Origin: Planctomycetota bacterium | Lineage (GTDB): Bacteria; Planctomycetota; Planctomycetia; Gemmatales; Gemmataceae | Reading direction: 5' to 3' | NCBI GenBank assembly: GCA_016873095.1 | Contig: VGYC01000042.1 | Coordinates: forward strand, 1 to 44,345 | Length of the DNA stretch: 44,345 nt | Shown here: one piece after another, positions 3,797 through 44,280 of the stretch | Numbering within the stretch: position 1 is the stretch's first letter | How the letters are laid out: the number at the start of each line of letters is the position of its first letter | Translations under genes and position numbers: made by a program | The notes under the pieces: generated by a model | Database searches by the model: none | Told to the model about the DNA's origin: nothing | The model's input: only the letters and a program-made list of their open reading frames with translations

Positions 3797-3840
3797 GTCT
3801 TGCCTCCGCGCGAATAGGATAAAGATGATTATATCCATAG

Positions 3841-3935
3841 TCAGTGTTCAGTTTTCAGTGTTCAGCGTTCAGAAAGCAGTGTGAAACTGCCCTGAACGCC
3901 GAACACTGAAAACTGAACACTGAAAACTGAACACT
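3841..3935. repeat. Long near-perfect hairpin built of CAGTGTTCAGTTTT-type units
   Basis: Left arm 3841-3872 and right arm 3892-3923 are inverted copies of each other at 31 of 32 positions. The 19-nt spacer itself contains a small stem (GCAGT/ACTGC around GTGAA). Each arm is made of reiterated TTCAG/CTGAA-type units, and one more unit follows the right arm to 3935. It sits between the divergent M50 gene and the aminotransferase gene, ending 5 nt before the latter's ATG. It could form a very stable RNA or cruciform structure. Confidence 0.85.
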
Positions 3936-3939
3936 CGTT

Positions 3940-5067
3940 ATGGACTGGCAAGCACTACGTTCCGAGTTTCCGGTGACGCGGCGATGGGCGTTCATGGACC
4001 ACGCGGCGGTAGCGCCGTTGACGGCGCGAGCGCAGCAGGCGCTCGCCGAATACGCCGCCGATCTGGCGGAGAACGGCGACGTCAACGAACCACGCTGGGT
4101 GAATCGCATCGAGGAGGTGCGCGGTCTTTCCGCCCGGCTCATCAACGCCGACCCGCTCGACATCGCCTTCGTCAAGAATACCAGCGAGGGCATCGGCATC
4201 GTCGCCGAGGGACTGCCCTGGGAACCCGGCGACAATGTCGTCACCGCTCGCGAGGAGTATCCCGCCAACATCTACCCCTGGATGAACCTCGCCGGCCGCG
4301 GCGTCGAGTTACGGACCGTCGCCAGCCGGCATAACCGTCTCGAACTCGACGACCTGTTTGCCGCCATCGACTCACGCACGCGGCTGGTCAGTGTCAGCTT
4401 CATCGAGTTCGCCAGCGGTTTTCGCAATGACCTGGATGCCATCGGGGCCGAGTGCCGGCGGCGCGGCGTTCTCTTCTTCGTCGATGCCATTCAGGGGCTT
4501 GGCGTTTTTCCGCTCGATGTGCGCCAGACTCCGATCGATTTCCTCGCGGCCGACGGGCACAAGTGGCTGCTCGGACCGGAAGGGGCCGGCATCTTCTTCA
4601 TCCGCCGCGAACTGGTGGAGCGGTTGCGGCCGGTGGGCATCGGCTGGAACAGCGTCGTCAATTCGCGGGACTTCTCACGCATCGATTTCGTGTTGAAACC
4701 GCACGCAGGCCGCTGGGAAAATGGCAGCCTCAACGTCGGCGGCATTGCCGCGCTCGGCGCCAGCATGGAGCTTCTTCTCGAGATCGGCATCCCGGCCATC
4801 GCCGACCGCGTAGTGAACTTGACAGACTATCTTTGCGAGCGCGCCGCAAGGGCAGGCTGGCCGGTATTCAGTAGCCGGAGTGACACCGACAGGTCGTCCA
4901 TCGTGTCACTGGTTCCGGCCCGCGGCGACCCACAGAGCTTGAAGCGGCTGTGCCGGCAGCGCGGCATCGCCGTCAACCAGCGTGCGGGCCGGCTACGCAT
5001 CAGTCCGCATTGCTATAACACTTGCGAGGAGCTGGATCGATTGATCGAGACGCTCGAATCCGTCTAG
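3940..5067 (+). CDS. Class V aminotransferase / cysteine-desulfurase-like PLP enzyme
   Basis: A 375-residue fold-type I PLP enzyme. The lysine that binds PLP is in ADGHKWLLGPEG, Lys208, with the upstream 'FVDAIQGLGVFPLDV' strand that carries the Asp/Gln contacting the cofactor and 'NTSEGIGIVAEGL' for phosphate binding. The N-terminus ('MDHAAVAPLTARA') and the C-terminal small domain ('ISPHCYNTCEELDRLIETL') fit the class V family that includes cysteine desulfurases, kynureninase-like and isopenicillin-N-epimerase-like proteins. There is no clear reactive-loop cysteine of the IscS/SufS type, so the substrate is open. The ATG at 3940 has no ribosome site because the hairpin repeat ends 5 nt before it; translation may depend on that structure. 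CoaD follows after a repeat-filled gap. Confidence 0.87.
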   Translation: MDWQALRSEFPVTRRWAFMDHAAVAPLTARAQQALAEYAADLAENGDVNEPRWVNRIEEVRGLSARLINADPLDIAFVKNTSEGIGIVAEGLPWEPGDNVVTAREEYPANIYPWMNLAGRGVELRTVASRHNRLELDDLFAAIDSRTRLVSVSFIEFASGFRNDLDAIGAECRRRGVLFFVDAIQGLGVFPLDVRQTPIDFLAADGHKWLLGPEGAGIFFIRRELVERLRPVGIGWNSVVNSRDFSRIDFVLKPHAGRWENGSLNVGGIAALGASMELLLEIGIPAIADRVVNLTDYLCERAARAGWPVFSSRSDTDRSSIVSLVPARGDPQSLKRLCRQRGIAVNQRAGRLRISPHCYNTCEELDRLIETLESV

Positions 5068-5716: not shown

Positions 5717-7402
5717 CTACGATGCCGACGCCAGTTGTCCCAGCTCGCGACGTCGCGAACGCGCCGGCCGTTCGAGGGTCTCGTTGACTTTTTGCACCAG
5801 CTGCTGCGCGGTGAAGGGCTTGGGCAGGAAGGCGGCGCGGGACTTGGAAACCTTGAGCCGCACGTTGAGATCGTCCAGGTAGCCGGAGATGTACAACACC
5901 TTGATGCTGGGTCGCTCATCCAGCAAGCGTTGAGCGACCTCGCCGCCGCCCATCGTCGGCATGACCACGTCGGTCACAAGCAGGTCGATGGTCCCCTGGT
6001 AATGTTCACTGAGACGCAGCGCCTCGGCGCCGTTGGCGGCCTGCAGGACGATGAAGCCGGACTGCTCGAGTGCCTTGCACGCCATGGTGCGCACTCCATC
6101 CTCATCTTCCACGAGCAGCACGGTGGCGCGCTTGCCCGCCAGGTCGATCTGCGGCAGCGGCCTGCTGATCGACGACAGCCCCTCGGCGGCGTGCGGCAAA
6201 TAAATATTGAAAGCGGCTCCCTGACCCGGCCGACTTTGCACGACAATGCTGCCGCCGCTCTGCTTGACAATGCCGTACACCGTCGCCAGCCCAAGCCCCG
6301 TCCCTTTGCCTTGCTTGGTCGTGAAGAACGGTTCGAAGATATGACTGCGGACGGATTCGTCCATGCCACAACCCGTGTCCTGAACCGTCAGAAGAACATA
6401 GTTACCCGGCTGAATACCTGGCATTTCGCGGCTGGCGGATGCCTTCAACTCCACGTTGCTCGTCTTGATGGTGATCTGCCCGCCGTCCGGCATGGCATCG
6501 CGCGCATTGACCACCAGGTTCATCAGCACCTGGCCGATCTGCCCTGGATCGACCTTGACGGGAAACAGGTCGGGATCGAGCGTGCGCGTCAGGCGAATGT
6601 CCTCGCGGATGAGCCGGCCGAGCATTCTCTCGATGTCCTTGATGAGCGAGTTCAGGTTGACGATAACCGGAGCAAGAACCTGCCTGCGGCTGAACGCGAG
6701 CATCTGGTTGGTCAGTGCGGCGGCACGTTCGCCCACCTTGGCGATCTCTTCGATCGAGATGCGTCCGGGGTGATCATCCGGAAGCATCTGCAGGAGCAAG
6801 TCGCCATGCCCCAGAATCACCGTGAGGAAGTTGTTGAAATCATGGGCGACGCCTCCCGCCAGCCGGCCGATGGCTTCCATTTTCTGGGCCTGCAAGAGCT
6901 GCGATTCCAGGCGCTTTTGTTCGGAGACGTCTGCGAGCACGCCGACGTAGTGTGTCACTCTGCCCTCAGGAGCACGGATGGGAGCGAACGACAGAGTGCT
7001 CCAGAATGACGTTCCGTCCTTGCGCTGCACGAGGAACTCGACCAGGTAAGAGCGCGACTCTGCCATGGCCGCGTCGATCTCGCCAGCCACTCTCGGGTTG
7101 GCGTCCGGCCCCTGAAGCAGCGACCAGCCGCGCGTCAAAACCTCGTCGCGGCGGTAACCGGTCAGACACTCGAAGGCGTGGTTGACGTAGATGATCGGCT
7201 GACCAGGCCGGGCCGCGTCGAGAATGAACAGCCCTTCGGTGATTGCCTCGAGGGCGCGCTCGCGCAAGTTCAGGATCTCAGCCGAGCGCTTCTGCTCGCT
7301 CAGGTCGCGGATGACGCTGATGACCATCGGGCCGTCGCTCGTGTGCTGCGGGCACAGGCTGATCTCGACGGGAAACTCGCTGCCATCCTTGCGATGTCCC
7401 AC
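5717..7402 (-). CDS. PAS-domain hybrid histidine kinase with C-terminal receiver, 5'-truncated
   Basis: Numbered from the GTG at 7402 (561 residues): end of a PAS domain (about 1-40, beginning GHRKDGSEFPVEISL), a complete PAS/PAC domain (45-165), HisKA with the phospho-accepting His187 in AGGVAHDFNN, HATPase (N box NLVVNARDAMPDGG, DTGCGMD, FEPFFTTKQGKGTGLGL), and a receiver domain (phospho-acceptor Asp478 in VTDVVMP, Lys528 in PKPF). The frame stays open upstream to about 7570 and PAS-like residues continue to about 7495, but that stretch has no usable start and meets the decapitated membrane gene. The first PAS is thus missing its N-terminal half and any sensory or membrane part. It may be translated from the GTG as a soluble kinase or may be a decaying gene. 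No DNA-binding output domain is present. Confidence 0.85.
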   Translation of the reverse strand: MGHRKDGSEFPVEISLCPQHTSDGPMVISVIRDLSEQKRSAEILNLRERALEAITEGLFILDAARPGQPIIYVNHAFECLTGYRRDEVLTRGWSLLQGPDANPRVAGEIDAAMAESRSYLVEFLVQRKDGTSFWSTLSFAPIRAPEGRVTHYVGVLADVSEQKRLESQLLQAQKMEAIGRLAGGVAHDFNNFLTVILGHGDLLLQMLPDDHPGRISIEEIAKVGERAAALTNQMLAFSRRQVLAPVIVNLNSLIKDIERMLGRLIREDIRLTRTLDPDLFPVKVDPGQIGQVLMNLVVNARDAMPDGGQITIKTSNVELKASASREMPGIQPGNYVLLTVQDTGCGMDESVRSHIFEPFFTTKQGKGTGLGLATVYGIVKQSGGSIVVQSRPGQGAAFNIYLPHAAEGLSSISRPLPQIDLAGKRATVLLVEDEDGVRTMACKALEQSGFIVLQAANGAEALRLSEHYQGTIDLLVTDVVMPTMGGGEVAQRLLDERPSIKVLYISGYLDDLNVRLKVSKSRAAFLPKPFTAQQLVQKVNETLERPARSRRRELGQLASAS

Positions 7403-7489
7403 AAGATGGCGCTTGGAGACCGTCGGCTTGAGCGGGTCGTGCGACGAGATATCAGAAAATTGCTCGCGATTGCGCCGGCTTACCAGGCT

Positions 7490-7669
7490 GCGAACTTTGT
7501 TATTGGCGGCCTCACCGCATGGGCTGTTTTCACCCTGGCGTCTTTGGTTCTGGGAATCGGTGGATTATGCCAGAAGGGACGCAAAAAAGGGTTCGCCATT
7601 TGCGGTGTTACATTGAGTGGCTTTTTCATGCTGGCAGTCTTGGCTTTCGCACTCGCCGTGATAAGGTAA
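7490..7669 (+). pseudogene. C-terminal remnant of a small membrane protein (DUF4190-like)
   Basis: About 60 residues from FVIGGLTAWAVFTLASLVLG to LAFALAVIR form two hydrophobic segments separated by a basic loop (CQKGRKKGF), as in small two-helix membrane proteins of the DUF4190 type. Upstream of about 7490 the frame stays open, but there it is the antisense of the histidine kinase, so the proper N-terminus is missing. It therefore shares one breakpoint with the kinase: both genes have lost their 5' ends at the same place. Confidence 0.45.
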
Positions 7670-7676
7670 TTGGCAG

Positions 7677-8210
7677 ATGCTCAGCGTCTTTCGAATTCAG
7701 CCGCCGAACCAGGCATTGCACACCGACGGGGACCGCATTCTTGTTTTGCGCGACGCCACGCTGTTGCAGCGGCCCCGGACCACCTTCACAATGGGTCCGA
7801 CGACGAGAATCACGCCAAGCAGCTTTGCCAGGAAGATTGAGTGTTCCACGATAACTTCTGCCGCGCGTGACTTTGGCCGAACGCACCAGTTCACCCGGCA
7901 TAAGCAGTTCACCGAGGCATGTGAGCGAGCTTACGCGTCGCCAACCGCCGTCTTCGTCATCGGCGGATTGCTGTTCATCGTCAGCACGGCGTTCGTCCTA
8001 TCGCATCCGGTCTGGGTGGCCGATTGGCGGATCGTGGTGACGTTGATCGGCTGGCTGATGCTCTTTATCAGCCTATTGCAGTTGTTCGTGCCGCGCTCGG
8101 TGGCATGGCCGATGACGGTGCTGCCGCGGGCGAGGTATCGGTTCGTACTCGACCTCGGACAGGTGCTGGTCGGCCTGTACTTGGTGTATTGGGGCTTCCT
8201 GGCGTACTGA
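7677..8210 (+). CDS. Small membrane protein whose 5' part is repeat sequence
   Basis: The C-terminal 100 residues (from about 7917) look genuine: three hydrophobic segments (AVFVIGGLLFIVSTAFVL, IVVTLIGWLMLFISLLQLFV, LDLGQVLVGLYLVYWGFLAY) separated by short charged loops. The first 75 residues are translated from the dispersed repeat at 7703-7778 and the sequence after it, and look unlike a protein domain. No ribosome site precedes any in-frame start, and there is none between the repeat and the membrane part. The most likely reading is a gene whose 5' end was replaced by, or never accompanied, this repeat. The function is unknown. Confidence 0.4.
   Translation: MLSVFRIQPPNQALHTDGDRILVLRDATLLQRPRTTFTMGPTTRITPSSFARKIECSTITSAARDFGRTHQFTRHKQFTEACERAYASPTAVFVIGGLLFIVSTAFVLSHPVWVADWRIVVTLIGWLMLFISLLQLFVPRSVAWPMTVLPRARYRFVLDLGQVLVGLYLVYWGFLAY
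7703..7778 (+). repeat. Dispersed structured repeat, copy 1
   Basis: This 76-nt element matches 9072-9147 at 67 positions without gaps. It starts GCCGAACC and ends GCAGCGGCCCCGG. CGGGG-A-CCGC near the middle pairs with GCGGCCCCG at the end (one mismatch). It lies 33 nt after the stop of the membrane-protein remnant. Confidence 0.8.
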
Positions 8211-8347
8211 CCGGCGTGGCCCGGCCGAAAACCAGACGCGGCTGCAGACCGGCGGGGCATGTAGCGCTTCCCAGATATGTAGCTCACCCAGCCCCGCCGG
8301 CTGCTGAGCTTGGCCGTTCGACTTCAAGAAATCATGACTCGAAAATC

Positions 8348-8800
8348 ATGAGCAACGATAAGGGAGCAAGGGGTGCATCCAGACCGTCGCGTCGTGTGAC
8401 GTACGCACTCATCAGTGCTGTCGGTGCCGTCTTCTTGTGCGCCGGCGGCTGTACTGGCCTGTGGCTCCTGCTGCGACCAGATCCTTTCTTGGGACCCTGG
8501 CAAAGCCGGGACGCCAAAGGCAGAGACGACATTACTTTGGGCCTCTACGCTGAGGGCAATGGCGAGAAGACGGGCTTCTATCGCGCCGGCGAGGGCAAGA
8601 GCCAGTCCCTAAAGTGGAGGCTTGATGGCGATGTGCTCGAGTTCGAACTGATCGGGGACGGAACTTTCTGGACAGGCGAAAAAGTGGCCCGATTCAGCTA
8701 CTCCGTATCGTGGTCGGGCCGTGAGTTGACGCTGGTGCCGACGGCGGCAGGCCAACGGTCGGTTACCCTCAAGAGCACCAAGCGACCCTTCCCGACTTGA
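8348..8800 (+). CDS. Hypothetical membrane-anchored protein
   Basis: A 150-residue protein I do not recognise. A basic N-terminus (SNDKGARGASRPSRRVTYA) is followed by one hydrophobic segment (residues about 18-42, ISAVGAVFLCAGGCTGLWLL) and then about 105 residues of polar, beta-rich sequence with regular aromatic positions (GPWQSRD, LKWRLDGDVLEFEL, ARFSYSVSWSGRELTLVP). The pattern resembles lipocalin-like or TIGR03067-like 'how much, how folded' small exported domains. The CAGGCTG stretch could be a lipobox. There is no good ribosome site before the ATG at 8348; the frame is open further up but that part has no protein-like features. It lies in the islet of small plus-strand genes. Confidence 0.55.
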   Translation: MSNDKGARGASRPSRRVTYALISAVGAVFLCAGGCTGLWLLLRPDPFLGPWQSRDAKGRDDITLGLYAEGNGEKTGFYRAGEGKSQSLKWRLDGDVLEFELIGDGTFWTGEKVARFSYSVSWSGRELTLVPTAAGQRSVTLKSTKRPFPT

Positions 8801-8815
8801 TGTTGAGGTGATTAG

Positions 8816-9067
8816 ATGGGTTGGCAACATTTCACCGCGTTCACGCTTGCTGGCATTGGCGCGCTGGGCTTTTGTTTGATGATTGTCGCCTTCGTGATGA
8901 TTGCTCTTCAAGGCGGCTGGAAGCAATCGATCCAACAACCGATGGCCGAAGGCCGCTGGCCGATGGGAAGACGGCTTCTCCTCGTCGGCGCAGCGCTCGG
9001 CTTAGTGTTCGCCATCGGTATATTTGTTCTTGCCATGATCCCTGGTGGCATTCCGTGGCGTAACTGA
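8816..9067 (+). CDS. Hypothetical two-helix membrane protein
   Basis: An 83-residue protein with two transmembrane segments (residues about 8-30, TLAGIGALGFCLMIVAFVMI; and about 53-76, LLLVGAALGLVFAIGIFVLA) joined by a short polar loop containing GGWKQSIQQPMAEGRWPMGRR. GAGGTGAT lies 5-6 nt before the ATG. It starts 15 nt after the preceding gene, so the two are probably co-transcribed. Not recognised; no function suggested. Confidence 0.6.
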   Translation: MGWQHFTAFTLAGIGALGFCLMIVAFVMIALQGGWKQSIQQPMAEGRWPMGRRLLLVGAALGLVFAIGIFVLAMIPGGIPWRN

Positions 9068-9071
9068 AGAA

Positions 9072-9169
9072 GCCGAACCTGGCGTTGCACTCCGACCGGG
9101 GCCGCATTCTTGTTTCGCGCGACAGCACGCCGTTGCAGCGGCCCCGGCGGGTAAACTTTTTCGTTCGGC
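9072..9169 (+). repeat. Dispersed structured repeat, copy 2
   Basis: The first 76 nt match copy 1. Here the inner stem is perfect: CCGGGGCCGC (9096-9105) and GCGGCCCCGG (9138-9147) around a 32-nt loop. The outer ends also pair: GCCGAAC (9072-9078) and GTTCGGC (9163-9169). It begins 5 nt after the stop of the 83-residue membrane protein. The nested stems with outer 7-nt inverse repeats recall integron recombination sites, but the outer heptamers do not fit the attC consensus exactly. Confidence 0.8.
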
Positions 9170-9253
9170 GACCGAGACTGCGGGACCGCAGCGGCTCACC
9201 GGCGTCATACCAGTGTCGCCCGGTAACCATCTCTTACAATAGCGAGGTGCCGT

Positions 9254-9706
9254 ATGCGTCTGTGCGTAGCGTTGCTCCTGATGGCGGCCGTCGTCGCGGT
9301 TGCGGATGAGCCTAAAACCGGGGCGAAGGACAAGGAGGCCCTCCAGGGGCTGTGGCAGGCAGTCGAGTTGGAGGCCAACGGCAAGAAGGCTCCCGCCGAG
9401 GCGGTGAAGGCGTTCCAGGTCCAGTTCAAGGGCGACCAAATCGTGTTCAACCCGGCCTCTGAAAACCGCAAGCATGCCTTCGCGATCGACCCCGCGTCGA
9501 AGCCGAAGGCGATGGACCTGACGGCGGGCGATGGCCCGAAGAAGGGCCAGAAACTGCCGTGCGCAATCTATAAGCTGGAGGGCGACAAGCTCACCATCTG
9601 CCTCGACAAGGAGGGGGAGGCCGGCAAGCGGCCGACCGAGTTCAAGACGGCGGCCGGGGACGGCTTCGCGCTGCTCACCTTGGAGCGGGTCAAAGACAAG
9701 AAGTGA
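9254..9706 (+). CDS. TIGR03067-family exported protein
   Basis: A 150-residue protein with a signal peptide (MRLCVALLLMAAVVAVA, cut after ADE or nearby) and one TIGR03067 domain. This small beta-rich domain of unknown function is abundant in planctomycetes. The family marks are present in order: LQGLWQAVELEANGKKAP, FQVQFKGDQIVF, FAIDPASKPKAMDLT, CAIYKLEGDKLTICLD and RPTEFK. Ribosome site GAGGT lies 6 nt before the ATG, and TACAAT at 9235-9240 could be its -10 box. It lies downstream of repeat copy 2. A short match to the start of the repeat (GCCGCCGAACC) follows its stop at about 9712. Confidence 0.78.
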   Translation: MRLCVALLLMAAVVAVADEPKTGAKDKEALQGLWQAVELEANGKKAPAEAVKAFQVQFKGDQIVFNPASENRKHAFAIDPASKPKAMDLTAGDGPKKGQKLPCAIYKLEGDKLTICLDKEGEAGKRPTEFKTAAGDGFALLTLERVKDKK

Positions 9707-10201
9707 CACAAGCCGCCGAACCCACATCTATGGCCCGCCGAATCAATAGCGCGCACGCCGAAAGAGGGATGATTTCTGATTTTTTCATCCGGCATCCTTG
9801 CGGGCTTCAGGACGAATCCGTGAGTGTGCGCTCCAGGCTGCGTCGGCGTGTTTCATGGTTCGTGGTTGCGGCGCCCGGGTGTCACGTCGTTGTCAGCGAA
9901 TGCGGTTGCGGCTGCAACCGTTCGCGCGCGTGCTGCACCAAACACATCGACGGGGTCGGCCAGGTCTCCTTGCGGCGTCCCGACTGCGCGAGGCAAACGT
10001 CACGGTGTCCCGCCTGTGCCGTGGCTCTCCTCTGCGCCCCGGAGGGGTTGGGAGGAGGCCACGGCGTGATCCTCGTCGCGCCCTAGAAATTCAGCCGTGC
10101 CGCCACGTCGGCCAGTGCGATCATTCAAATGCACGGGCTCATCTTGCCGGCGCCAACTGGGCTCTCCTGGGCGGAGTGGGCGAGGCGCCGCCGAGCGGGC
10201 T

Positions 10202-19173: not shown

Positions 19174-20274
19174 GTGAGCCAGAAGATCGAGCGAGATCAG
19201 CAGCGGTTCAAGAAGATCGTACGCGGCAAGGTGAAGAGCAACCTGTCGAAGTACATCGGCCGCGGCGAGATGATTGGCAAGAAGGGTAATGACCTGGTGA
19301 GCATTCCCTTGCCGCAGATCGACATCCCGCAGTTTCGCTACGGCGAGAAGGGGTCGGGCGGGGTAGGGCAGGGCGAGGGCCAGCCGGGACAGCCGTTGAC
19401 CGCGCCACGCGGCGACAGCGACGCTGGCGCCGGCGACCAACCGGGCGGACATATCCTGGAAGTTGAGTTGTCCCTCGAAGAACTGGCCGCGATCATGGGC
19501 GAGGAACTGGCGCTGCCGCGCATCGAGCCGCGTGGCAAGAAGAACATCGTCACCACCAGGGACAAGTACACCGGCATTCGCCAGGCCGGCCCAGAGTCGC
19601 TCCGCCATTTCAAGCGCACCTTCAAGCGCGCCTTGAAGCGGCAGATCTCCTCCGGCGTCTACGACCCGAAGAATCCGACGGTCATGCCCATCCGCGAGGA
19701 CAAGCAATACCGCAGCTGGAAGGAGATCCAGAAGCCCGAGAGCGTGGCTTGCATCATCTACATGATGGACGTTTCCGGCTCCATGACCGACGAGCAAAAA
19801 GAGATCGTCCGCGTCGAGTCCTTCTGGATCGACACCTGGATCAAGAAGCACTACAAGGGCATCCAGACCATCTACATCATCCACGATGCGGTCGCCCAGG
19901 AAGTGGACGAGCACACCTTCTACCACACTCGCGAGAGCGGCGGCACCAAGATCAGCTCTGCCTACGAGTTGTGCGACAAGATCATCAACCAGCGCTTCCC
20001 ACCCGACCAGTGGAACCTGTACGCCTTCCACTTCTCCGACGGCGACAACTGGGGCGACGACATCCCGCACTGCATCGAGATCCTCACCGAGCGGCTGCTG
20101 CCCAAGGTCAACCTGTTCGGCTACGGGCAGGTCGAAAGCCCCTACGGCAGCGGCGAGTTCTTCGACTACATCAAGGAAATGCTCGGCGAGAAGGCCAACG
20201 TCGTCGCCAGCCGCATCCCCGACCGCGAGGCCATTTTGGGGTCCATCAAGGAATTCTTGGGCACAGGACGCTGA
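19174..20274 (+). CDS. yeaH: YeaH/YhbH family protein (DUF444) with VWA-like domain
   Basis: A 366-residue protein. The family opening '[20 protein letters not shown]' is followed by a Gly/Gln-rich linker (57-95), '[20 protein letters not shown]', and a von Willebrand A-like domain from about 190 with the metal (MIDAS) motif DVSGSM at 199-204 and a later '[11 protein letters not shown]'. The GTG at 19174 is the start, with GAGG 7 nt upstream. DUF444 proteins are regularly encoded between prkA and spoVR and are thought to act with them in stress adaptation (YeaG-YeaH in E. coli) or spore formation; the biochemical role is not settled. It lies 82 bases after prkA and is probably in the same operon. 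Confidence 0.93.
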
Positions 20275-20278
20275 TCGA

Positions 20279-20359
20279 AGATTTCAGATTTGAGATTGCA
20301 GATTCAAGAAGCAACCCGGTTTGATGCTCTGACAATCTGCAATCTGCAATCTGAAATCT
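20279..20359. repeat. Hairpin of CAGATTGCAGATTT-type units between yeaH and spoVR
   Basis: Arms 20279-20304 and 20334-20359 are inverted copies at 24 of 26 positions, with a 29-nt loop. They are built of reiterated ATTTCAG/GCAATCTG units and a further unit follows to about 20367. The stem would form in the yeaH-spoVR transcript and could lower read-through or protect the upstream message. Confidence 0.8.
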
Positions 20360-20385
20360 GCAATCTGTGCTCCAAGGAAGGATGG

Positions 20386-40827: not shown

Positions 40828-43800
40828 ATGGCGGTTCAGATCAATGAAGAAGTCATCTTTAATGAAGCTCGCAACATTGAGTCGCCGGAGGCTCGTGGCC
40901 GGTACCTCGATGAGGCGTGTGGCGGCAATGCGGCGCTGCGCGACCGGCTCCAGGCCTTGATGCGCGTGTATGAACAAGATCGCAGCTTTCTGAAGCCCCT
41001 TTCCGCGACCAAGGCGACGGGCGACTCCGCCGTCCAGGAAGGTCCAGGCAGCGTCATCGGGCCGTACAAACTGCTGGAGCAAATCGGCGAAGGCGGCTTC
41101 GGCGTTGTCTTCATGGCCGAGCAGCAACGACCGGTGCGCCGAAAGGTTGCCCTGAAGGTGCTCAAGCCTGGGATGGACACGCGCCAGGTGGTCGCGCGTT
41201 TCGAGGCGGAACGCCAGGCGCTGGCGCTGATGGAGCATCAGAACATCTCCCGTGTCCTGGACGCAGGCGAAACCGCCACCGGCCGGCCGTTCTTCGTCAT
41301 GGAGTTGGTCCGAGGCGTGCCGATCACCAATTTCTGCGACGGCAACCACCTTCCCGTCCGGGAGCGCCTTCGCCTGTTTCTTGATGTCTGCCAGGCGGTG
41401 CAGCATGCCCATCAGAAAGGGATCATTCATCGCGACGTCAAGCCAACCAACATCCTGGTCACGCTGCACGATGGCACGCCGGTAGCCAAGGTGATCGATT
41501 TCGGCATCGCCAAGGCCATGGGCCAGCAGCTCACCGATAAGACACTGTTCACCGGCTTTGCCCAGATGATCGGCACGCCGAGCTATATGAGTCCCGAGCA
41601 GGCGGAGATGAGCGGGCTGGATGCAGACACGCGCAGCGACATTTACGCCCTTGGAATCTTGCTGTACGAACTGCTGACCGGCACAACGCCCTGCGAGCAG
41701 GAGCGGCTGCGGACCGTGGGCTTCGATGAGATCCGCCGCATCATCCGCGAGGAAGAGCCGCCCAGGCCGAGCACGCGCATCACCACCATGGGAAACCTGG
41801 CGTCGACGGTGTCCGCCAACCGCCGCAGCGACCCGCGCCGGTTGAGTCAGCTTTTTCAAGGCGAGCTCGACTGGATCGTGATGAAAGCGCTGGAGAAGGA
41901 CCGCAACCGCCGCTATGAAACGGCGTCGGCCCTGGCGGCCGACGTGCAGCGCTATCTGAACGACGAGCCTGTGCTGGCCCGCCCGCCGTCGAGCATGTAC
42001 CGGCTGCGGAAAACCATGCGGCGGCATCGAGGGCCGGTTATCGCCGCTGCCCTCATCATGCTGGCGCTGGTGGTCGGGATTATTGCCTCCGTGTGGGGCC
42101 TCCTTCGCGCCACCGACGCGGAAACGTCCGCTCGCGCGGAAGCCAAGCAAAAGGAGAACGCCCTCAAGGACAAGGAGGCAGCGCTTGCGACGGCTGAAGC
42201 AAATGAGCGTGACGCCAGGGAACAACTCTTCCTGTCACGCTTGAACCAGGCCCGGGCCAGCCGCTTCAGTCGCCAGATGGGCCAGCGTCTCGACAGCCTG
42301 GTCGCCCTGACAAAAGCCACTCGCCTGCGCCGCGACGACCGCCTGCGCGATGAGGCGATCGCCGCGATGGCTCTCCCGGACATCCGGCCCGGACCCTGCT
42401 GGCACGCCTTCCCCCCGGGTTATCGTTTCTGGGCTTTCGATGACAACTACCGCCTCTACGCCCGGGCCAACTATGACGGAATCATCAGTGTTCGCACCCT
42501 CCCCGACGACCGGGAAATCCAGAATATCAGCGCGCCGGACAAGACTGCGTCGCTCCTGCTCAGCCCCGACGGCCGTTACGTCGGCAGGTGGGAGAACACC
42601 CTTAGACTTCGCGTGTGGCGGGTATCCGACGGCAAAGAGGTCTTCCGTGAGCCGCCGGCGACCACCTCAGGACAGATCTTCAGCCCCGACAGCCGTCTAC
42701 TGGTAGTCGGCCTAGACGGTTGGCTCCTCCGCTTCGATTTGGCGACCGGTCAAGAGCTTAACCGCTGGCAGCTCCCCGAAAACAGCAATCCGTTGGTGCT
42801 CGCTTTTCATCCGGACAACCGCCGGCTCGCGGTCGGATACGTCGACTCGAAGAACGTTTCTATTTATGACTCCAGCAACGGCGACCTCGTCACCAGCCTT
42901 CCGGTAGGCGCGCGCCAGACCCAGCCGCTTGCTTGGCATCCCGACGGCAGGCGCTTGGCGGTCGGCCAGTCGCAGGTCATCCAGATATGGGACGTGGACG
43001 CCAATCGTAAATTGGCGACTCTCCAAGGGCATATTCAACAGGTAGAGACTCTGACCTTTCATCCGGACGGCGCTCTCTTGGCTTCAGATTCGGGGGACGG
43101 CGTGTTGCGGCTGTGGGATACTTCAACGGGAAGGCCCCTCATGCAGTTGCCCCAACGTCGATCTATGCGTTTCAGCAGCGATGGCCGCTGGCTCGGCGCA
43201 GGCAAGCGCGGCGAGGAGGCGCACCTTCTCGAGGTGACGCCGACCCGCGAGTATCGCACCCTCGTGAGCAACCAGGGTCCCGGCCAGGGCAATTACCAAG
43301 ACGGGGATGTTAGCCCCGATGGACGGCTGTTCGCCTTAAACATGACCCCGAGCGGTGTTCATCTCTTTGATCTGCCCAGCGGCCGCCAGATCGCAGTGCT
43401 GTCGGACGGAGTCCCGCTCTTCCAAGCCGATGGCAGAGAGCTGTTTATCTGCAACAGCGAAGGCTTGCACCGTCAATCAATCTCCCGAGGACTGAAACCT
43501 CTCCGGAACGCGACCAGAATCGAGTCCGAAGGCGAAATAGTCATCGGTCCGCCGCGCACCATCCCCTTGCCGGGCGCGCCGCAACGGGTCGCCCGCAGTC
43601 AGGATGGCCGTACTCTCGCCATGGTTTGTGAGACCAAGGGTATCGGCTGGCTCGTCGATATCGAGACCGAATCGGTCCGCAACCAAAGAATGGAACACCC
43701 CGCGGCCCGTTACGTCGCTCTCAGCCCCGACGGCAAGTGGATGGCGACCAGCGGCTGGCACGCCGGCTGGACGCGTTTATGGGACGCGCACCCGTGGCAC

Positions 43801-44280
43801 GCCGGCTGGACGCGTTTATGGAACGCGCACACGGCAGAAATGGTCCACGAATGGTCGCTGCAGCGGACGTCGGTTTTCTTTACGCCCGACAGTCGCGTGC
43901 TGATCCTGGGCAGGGAGGACGGGTTTAGCTTCCATGAAGTGCCAAGCGGAAAACTTCTCCACCGCATTCGCCGCGATGTCGCACTCCATCATGCCAAGGT
44001 CGCCTTCGCTCCGAAAACCGGCCTCATGGCCATGGAAATGGAGCCGGGCGTCGTTCATCTCAAGGACATTGCGACGGGCAAGACCGTTGCCAAGCTCGAA
44101 GATCCCCACGGCGACCGCGCCATCTGGATGAGCTTCACGCCCGATGGGAGCCAACTCGTCGTGAACGCCCTCTACGCCAAAGCGATCCATGTCTGGGACC
44201 TCCGCGCGATCCGCCAGCGGCTCAGGTCGATGAACCTCGATTGGGACTGGCCGGAGTTTCCCGACCCATCCAAAAAATAA
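40828..44280 (+). CDS. Membrane serine/threonine protein kinase with WD40-like sensor domain
   Basis: A 1150-residue protein. Residues about 80-345 are a Hanks-type kinase: glycine loop IGEGGFGVVF, Lys110 (VALKVLK), catalytic HRDVKPTN with Asp203, DFGIAKA (224-230), and 'GTPSYMSPEQAE'. One transmembrane segment (about 403-425, ALIMLALVVGIIASVWGLLR) follows, then a short coiled-coil-like stretch rich in Ala, Lys and Glu (428-465), and then about 650 residues of beta-propeller repeats, each near 'SPDGR.LA.G' and 'V.LWD..TG'. The propeller is predicted outside the membrane and the kinase inside. It probably controls the upstream sigma factor. A 13-residue segment is duplicated in tandem at 43756-43833. 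Confidence 0.95.
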   Translation: MAVQINEEVIFNEARNIESPEARGRYLDEACGGNAALRDRLQALMRVYEQDRSFLKPLSATKATGDSAVQEGPGSVIGPYKLLEQIGEGGFGVVFMAEQQRPVRRKVALKVLKPGMDTRQVVARFEAERQALALMEHQNISRVLDAGETATGRPFFVMELVRGVPITNFCDGNHLPVRERLRLFLDVCQAVQHAHQKGIIHRDVKPTNILVTLHDGTPVAKVIDFGIAKAMGQQLTDKTLFTGFAQMIGTPSYMSPEQAEMSGLDADTRSDIYALGILLYELLTGTTPCEQERLRTVGFDEIRRIIREEEPPRPSTRITTMGNLASTVSANRRSDPRRLSQLFQGELDWIVMKALEKDRNRRYETASALAADVQRYLNDEPVLARPPSSMYRLRKTMRRHRGPVIAAALIMLALVVGIIASVWGLLRATDAETSARAEAKQKENALKDKEAALATAEANERDAREQLFLSRLNQARASRFSRQMGQRLDSLVALTKATRLRRDDRLRDEAIAAMALPDIRPGPCWHAFPPGYRFWAFDDNYRLYARANYDGIISVRTLPDDREIQNISAPDKTASLLLSPDGRYVGRWENTLRLRVWRVSDGKEVFREPPATTSGQIFSPDSRLLVVGLDGWLLRFDLATGQELNRWQLPENSNPLVLAFHPDNRRLAVGYVDSKNVSIYDSSNGDLVTSLPVGARQTQPLAWHPDGRRLAVGQSQVIQIWDVDANRKLATLQGHIQQVETLTFHPDGALLASDSGDGVLRLWDTSTGRPLMQLPQRRSMRFSSDGRWLGAGKRGEEAHLLEVTPTREYRTLVSNQGPGQGNYQDGDVSPDGRLFALNMTPSGVHLFDLPSGRQIAVLSDGVPLFQADGRELFICNSEGLHRQSISRGLKPLRNATRIESEGEIVIGPPRTIPLPGAPQRVARSQDGRTLAMVCETKGIGWLVDIETESVRNQRMEHPAARYVALSPDGKWMATSGWHAGWTRLWDAHPWHAGWTRLWNAHTAEMVHEWSLQRTSVFFTPDSRVLILGREDGFSFHEVPSGKLLHRIRRDVALHHAKVAFAPKTGLMAMEMEPGVVHLKDIATGKTVAKLEDPHGDRAIWMSFTPDGSQLVVNALYAKAIHVWDLRAIRQRLRSMNLDWDWPEFPDPSKK
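43756..43833 (+). repeat. In-frame 39-bp tandem duplication within the WD40 region
   Basis: Two adjacent 39-base copies (43756-43794 and 43795-43833) differ at two positions and encode WHAGWTRLWDAHP and WHAGWTRLWNAHT. The reading frame is kept. The duplication lengthens one propeller strand-loop unit and appears recent. Confidence 0.9.

Follow-up and report, generated by a model that had tools for sequence, protein, structure and literature searches.

attC-type sites in a Gemmataceae contig: a probable small cassette array without an adjacent integrase, and a variant core in the family

The structured repeats at 7.7–9.7 kb of the window are very probably attC sites that end integron cassettes, and together they make up a cluster of attC sites lacking an integron integrase (CALIN). 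The window is the whole stretch of 44,345 nucleotides analysed, which is all of contig C42; the genome has 8,355,748 bases on 548 contigs and is 95.5% complete. Because two of the sites, B and C, were matched by a covariance model (R1) trained on sites beside integron integrases of the same genome, and because no integrase was found on the contig, we regard the region as a small same-strand CALIN. Such an array is recognised by at least two attC sites with no intI nearby; here sites B and C are full-length and C42 has no intI. By kind the feature is an ordinary small CALIN, and a core variant that extends through the family may be new to specialists. The features are listed in Table 1.

Table 1. 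Features of the array, its flank, and the integrase genes found on two other contigs of the genome
Feature	Position	Strand	Basis and remarks
Hybrid histidine kinase gene, flank, not cassette	5717–7402	−	Pfam
Open stretch of small ORF at left array edge, start undefined	7451–7669	+	ORF list
Site A, attC-type, decayed	7703–7801	+	R'' GCCGAAC (7703–7709) and central stem kept
ORF of cassette A–B, 139 aa counted from ATG 7791; actual start uncertain	7791–8210	+	
Site B, attC-type	8224–8322	+	62.3 bits, E 1.4e-14, model 1–97; predicted fold
Cassette B–C ORF 1, 149 aa	8351–8800	+	ORF list
Cassette B–C ORF 2, 83 aa, stop 4 nt 5' of site C	8816–9067	+	ORF list
Site C (copy 2), attC-type, complete	9072–9169	+	69.4 bits, E 1.6e-16, model 1–97; fold
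TIGR03067 gene	9254–9706	+	98.8 bits, cut-off 40.15; no Pfam family
Possible fourth-site remnant, R'' side only	9712–9722	+	Exact 11-mer
Integron integrase gene	C132: 1808–2758		TIGR02249, 435.9–436.4 bits; open frame
Integron integrase gene	C83: 17532–18482		TIGR02249, 421.2–421.6 bits; open frame

Sites and cassettes in the window

The sequence-only reading had described two 76-nt copies, at 7703–7778 and 9072–9147, and these do agree at 67 positions (88% identity). Each lies, as that reading stated, just 3' of the stop codon of a small plus-strand ORF: copy 1 begins 33 nt after the stop at 7669, and copy 2 begins 4 nt past the stop at 9067. The 10-bp stem ascribed to copy 2 (CCGGGGCCGC/GCGGCCCCGG) and the outer pair GCCGAAC/GTTCGGC are both present in the predicted fold. 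The partial start noted at 9712 was also borne out, the sequence GCCGCCGAACC occurring exactly twice in the window (7700 and 9712) against an expectation of 0.08. What had been overlooked was a third, full-length site, site B at 8224–8322, which was found with the covariance model. When copy 2 was used as a DNA query against its own genome, it matched copy 1 (E 3.3e-21), a copy on C230 that is 91% identical (E 6.9e-28), and a partial copy on C183 (81%); the remaining listed matches had E-values of 0.0176 or worse.

Site C is the most complete of the sites. Its boxes are R'' GCCGAAC (9072–9078) and R' GTTCGGC (9163–9169), with L'' and the stem between them, and it can be parsed as an attC whose left arm, GTT(G)CAC..., leads into a GC-rich stem, followed by a right arm ending in GGGTAAAC and then R'. 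The extra G of the left arm is unpaired, like the extrahelical bases of attC sites. In site B, two additional bases split R'' (GCCGAAAAC), R' is GTTCGAC at 8316–8322, and three pairs are non-standard. The imperfect hairpin of an attC, with L''/L' arms and extrahelical bases on one side, was thus found in both, with slight departures in site C (one non-standard pair, and seven rather than six bases between the extrahelical positions, as read by eye from the model alignment) and larger ones in site B. In structure prediction, sites B and C folded only modestly better than shuffled sequences (z −1.5 to −2.5). The GTT/AAC triplets of the outer inverse boxes are kept in site C; site B keeps GTT, and AAC within its interrupted box.

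In site A, L' and R' are unrecognisable, the outer GTT triplet is not kept at the right side, and the model matches at its positions 23–75 only (7726–7777; 15.0 bits). The GTCCGAC at 7795–7801 may be a degenerate R' of this site. The fold of site A was no better than those of shuffles (z +0.5), and the remnant at 9712 gave no covariance-model match.

The ORF of cassette A–B stops 13 nt 5' of site B; it had no Pfam family at E 0.01, and its best NCBIfam match reached only 12.6 bits, which is below threshold. No Pfam or NCBIfam family matched the ORF at the left array edge, and no Pfam family matched either ORF of cassette B–C. Relatives of the two B–C ORFs were absent from the 94 other family genomes, each ORF matching only itself (1/95), and these ORFs therefore give no evidence of cassette movement. 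The TIGR03067 gene, which belongs to a planctomycete family by name, is probably a further cassette whose attC has been cut short.

The flanks of the array are chromosomal by Pfam: an aminotransferase, a cytidylyltransferase-like protein, and the hybrid histidine kinase are encoded on the left, and a CN-hydrolase/NAD synthase on the right. Elsewhere in the window, two copies of a 39-nt unit that are 95% identical lie head to tail at 43756–43833, and inverted repeats of 31–39 nt, composed of short units that resemble TTCAG or GATTTCAGATT, lie at 3834–3944 and 20273–20366.

Integrases of the genome and the integron-cassette reading

An integron-type integrase, for which a search had been proposed, is encoded twice in the genome: two genes, on C83 and C132, exceeded the curated TIGR02249 cut-off of 265. 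The profile search of the genome's contigs gave 25 matches, 23 of them below the cut-off, and none of the 25 was on C42 at E 0.001. All 14 of the 14 control genomes also gave TIGR02249 matches, none over the cut-off. The C83 integrase aligned to residues 14–328 of the 331 of VchIntIA (2A3V) with 284 bits, and residues R135, K160, H267, R270, H293, and Y302 (2A3V numbering), which we take to be catalytic, are conserved in both integrases. In a named collection, the integrase with the highest identity over most of the query was that of a Gemmataceae MAG (59% in the best segment). The best E-value was obtained with a Limisphaerales MAG (55%), and identities of up to 81% occurred in short fragments from other groups. 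The two integrase genes with their downstream DNA (L061, C83, 17523–18753; L063, C132, 1802–3012) are 76% identical over 1241 nt, and by eye the 3' ends of the genes are nearly identical, as if partly homogenised.

Five R1 sites adjoin the C83 gene and two the C132 gene; all seven lie 5' of intI, on the other strand. Both loci share a stretch (AACCATTGATT.AA.CG), a candidate attI, in the DNA separating intI from the first cassette. In their divergent layout they resemble sedentary chromosomal integrons. The contents of the C83 cassettes are also alike: by Pfam, its ORFs (n = 6) include one FAD-binding oxidoreductase, one PIN-domain protein, and four without a family. The PIN-domain gene (L061, 15638–16063, minus strand) lies within the array and may belong to a toxin-antitoxin pair with a stabilising effect on it. 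The two loci differ from sedentary chromosomal integrons in their short arrays and mostly GTTCGGC-like cores, and other members of the family differ in that the array is co-directional with intI.

The seven sites beside these integrases were the sole training set of R1, which is a model of this genome's own sites and not a published attC model. The attC covariance search that had been suggested for the repeats was performed with R1 and found sites B and C at full length. With filters off, the best match in the window outside the array reached 14.0 bits (63 rows to E 10), and the reverse strands of sites C and B scored 17.8 and 14.2 bits; R1 E-values are rough because the calibration was short. 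Copies had also been proposed for counting genome-wide, and R1 gave at least 21 matches to E 1, 15 of them above 50 bits (on C83, C132, C193, C230, C42, C340, C69, and C31), a lower bound from scoring the best 150 of 13,929 first-look candidates.

Base pairing is conserved in these sites. Among the seven integrase-side sites, 90.9% of 175 cells were paired, and 23 cells were double-changed, compared with a mean of 8.8 in shuffled alignments and 3–9 in slid ones; this covariation stems from the inner 18 pairs, the outer helix having no double change. In 15 sites of the genome, including B and C, there were 44 double-changed cells versus 7–14 in slid alignments, with 7 of the 15 being sites on which R1 had been trained. 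As for the proposed test of whether copies lie consistently 3' of small ORFs, sites followed same-strand stops more often than controls did: such a stop was present at −15 to 60 nt for 48 of 101 sites, compared with 510 of 2020 random positions and, for the other strand, 29 of 101. About half of the sites had no stop nearby.

Some of the copies are single on their contigs (those on C230, C340, C69, and C31 among the 15 matches above 50 bits), as would be expected of an ordinary dispersed intergenic repeat of the REP or MITE kind that happens to fold. We consider such a repeat very improbable, because sites of the same structure stand in ordered arrays beside integron integrases, the pairing is kept while the sequence changes, an unpaired base repeatedly splits the L''/L' arm in two, and same-strand stops precede the sites more often than they do the controls. 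Still less probable are gene-end elements acting in RNA or as transcription terminators. Hairpins directly past stop codons would suit them, as would the five T that follow the inner stem of site C after nine bases; however, site B has no T run, and a terminator scan of 7400–9900 gave 3 sites versus 2.9 expected from shuffles, none of them at sites A, B, or C. In addition, no Rfam family reached its gathering score in the window, and the sites show the outer GTT/AAC boxes and the pattern of bulges known from attC. The integron-cassette reading is favoured by the two integrases with their site arrays, by the recognition of the window sites by R1, and by the position of sites after stop codons.

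Bottom-strand binding by IntI, cleavage at GTT/AAC, and exchange of a single strand are the established mechanism of integrons. In the window, each cassette would consist of a small ORF or ORF pair followed by an attC. IntI from the other contigs would bind the folded bottom strand and cut it within the GTT/AAC triplet of R', and single-strand exchange would excise the cassette or insert it at attI or at another attC. IntI would act on the window sites in trans, and we infer that site C could still recombine, that site B would do so poorly, and that site A would have lost the ability.

Origin of the array

CALINs and their proposed origins are described in published work (PMC8618304, PMC9024848). 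The window array resembles them in its tandem same-strand sites B and C, its small ORFs, and an intI elsewhere in the genome; it differs in the C at position 4 of R' and in its decayed end sites.

The left edge of the array bears on its origin. The N-terminal half of the first PAS domain of the neighbouring kinase (5717–7402) seems to be missing, with the cut at about 7402–7475. Most of the listed homologues of this kinase sit in longer open frames, but at 37–52% identity they do not place the junction, and no empty site for the kinase gene and no clean left boundary of the array were found.

Off-target insertion of the cassettes by an IntI encoded elsewhere, one of the three origins put forward for CALINs in PMC8618304, has in our estimate slightly under an even chance. 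It agrees with the open-frame integrases on other contigs and with the single sites on several more; the missing clean boundary or empty site and the apparently truncated kinase argue against it. That the array is the relic of a larger integron, severed by rearrangement or loss of intI, we put at an even chance. The decay of the array ends (site A and the 9712 remnant) and the kinase truncation point to a relic, whereas the 44-kb contig shows no trace of intI in the form of a TIGR02249 match at E 0.001.

Integrons and the site core in the family

In the family Gemmataceae, R1 gave a match at E 0.001 in 82 of 95 genomes (own included), in scans that scored the best 43 and the best 20 candidates per genome; R1 was trained on its own lineage and may miss other attC types. 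An integron integrase was present in 39 of the 95 at E 1e-60 and in 35 over the cut-off. All 39 were among the 82 site-positive genomes, versus 0 of 13 site-negative genomes (Fisher p 0.0006, ignoring genome relatedness). Integrons of Planctomycetes have been published (PMC2426708, PMC8618304), and a taxon-specific covariance model for Planctomycetes attC is in print (PMC8352920); the window sites are probably of the same phylum. Gemmata was not named in the integron and attC literature among the matches listed.

A tree was built from 46 integrases: 28 of 32 family candidates and 17 of 36 others, these being the ones that a script could extract, plus 2A3V. Twenty-one of the family rows formed one supported clade (100/99; bootstrap not settled); the two integrases of the window's genome paired outside it, and five more family rows were also outside. 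The idea that the family's integrases fall into two unrelated lineages was not retained: a single clade of all 28 family rows was not rejected (p 0.381), and these rows formed one group in 54% of bootstrap trees.

At 13 of 22 loci the sites were co-directional with intI and on its 3' side (one of them, L189, on a single doubtful site); the layout was divergent at three (C83, C132, and G036), and six had no sites near intI. Co-directional loci within the 21-row clade were G004, G006, G011, G018, G023, G027, G094, and the doubtful G088; the other five have no tree row, and the three divergent loci fall outside the clade. Thus, of the 16 loci with sites near intI (own two counted), 13 carry intI and the sites on the same strand, a likeness to the reverse-oriented integrons reported with typical Spirochaetota IntIs (PMC9668308) and as 'atypical' in Treponema (PMC3607928), from which the window's genome differs by its ordinary divergent layout. 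GTTCGGC was found with both layouts.

The full core of attC is given as GTTRRRY, with inverse core RYYYAAC, in an account that also describes unpaired extrahelical arm bases (PMC3053210), and a structured-DNA motif with RYYYAAC has been reported as a likely attC variant (PMC8632094). Neither the full core nor the inverse is present in sites B and C, which have C in place of R at position 4 (GTTCGAC and GTTCGGC), the deviation to which the sequence-only reading had pointed. Cores were counted with a script whose only requirements are AAC, GTT, and L''/L' pairing with a bulge, core positions 4–7 being left free; it replaced a covariance model without outer boxes, which aligned poorly. In 20 family integrase regions chosen from those listed (335,806 bases), the script found 98 sites, compared with 4 in one shuffle and 5 in reversed sequence; five of the regions had none. 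Position 4 was C in 95 of the 98, and thus the GTTRRRY letter fails even where integrases adjoin arrays. The exact GTTCGGC occurred in 86 and GCCGAAC in 88.

The same script found 8 sites in 14 stretches of the window's genome (201,482 bases), with 0 in shuffled and 6 in reversed sequence, and therefore gives no independent support there. It found no site in the window because of the mispair in site C and the interrupted box of site B, so that the window sites rest on the covariance model. An earlier bulged-palindrome script missed the window's sites, gave two unrelated matches in the window, and was set aside. Among 20 of the 21 R1 rows of the genome, 15 had C at position 4 and 8 ended exactly in GTTCGGC.

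At 37 integrase loci of the named collection, mostly from other phyla, the 21 sites had A in 13, G in 4, C in 3, and T in 1; with 5 sites in shuffled and 7 in reversed controls, about a third of the 21 may be chance. One of the three C sites was in a Planctomycetaceae genome and two were at a Gemmataceae locus, both ending in GTTCGGC. Loci picked with R1, a choice that leans towards C, gave C 62, A 8, G 1, and T 1 of 72 at 29 family loci, and A 21, C 9, G 7, and T 1 of 38 at 29 loci from other families of the phylum (1 in shuffled, 7 in reversed sequence). Judged from these sequences, the change to C at position 4 is concentrated in the family; it occurs to some extent elsewhere, and some family sites lack it. 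It is a family trait and no sign against the integron reading.

The second extrahelical position is G in most attC sites, and blaVIM-2 is named as the sole example of C in the relevant passage of PMC3053210. On the bottom strand, 79 of the 98 family sites showed T-N6-C, 4 another pattern, and 15 no pattern that could be read. The use of T-N6-C as a mark of the lineage was weakened by its presence in 2 of 8 resolved named-collection sites, and results were mixed for an association of residue 210 with the extrahelical C (13 of the 28 family rows have Y).

The GTTCGGC core variant was not met in the integron literature consulted, mostly open-access and partly represented, and we do not claim its absence from print. 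Primers used in integron surveys end in ...GTTAGSC and ...GTTAGVC (PMC2669170). For the 92 of 98 family sites with R' GTTCG or GTTAG, comparison with the GTTAGSC primer showed a mismatch at the fourth core base, near the 3' end, in 92 of 92; the gene pool of the family may therefore be under-sampled. IntI1 is reported to need only a three-base motif, extendable to GTTRRRY (PMC10127599), compared with which one further core base is nearly constant over many family arrays. As a natural experiment, the family could show whether the core sequence itself is read by IntI or whether GTT and the structure suffice. Somewhat tentatively, we suggest that Gemmataceae perhaps have pervasive integrons whose sites have shifted jointly to GTTCGGC, mostly with T-N6-C, in both array orientations, and whose cassettes circulate and partly escape GTTRRRY primers and models.

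In L199 (G011:C1:1360000–1379999), a 20-kb region of a genome assembled as one contig, the script found 35 sites; all twelve of the sites listed end in GTTCGGC. By its sequence, L199 is a large sedentary integron.
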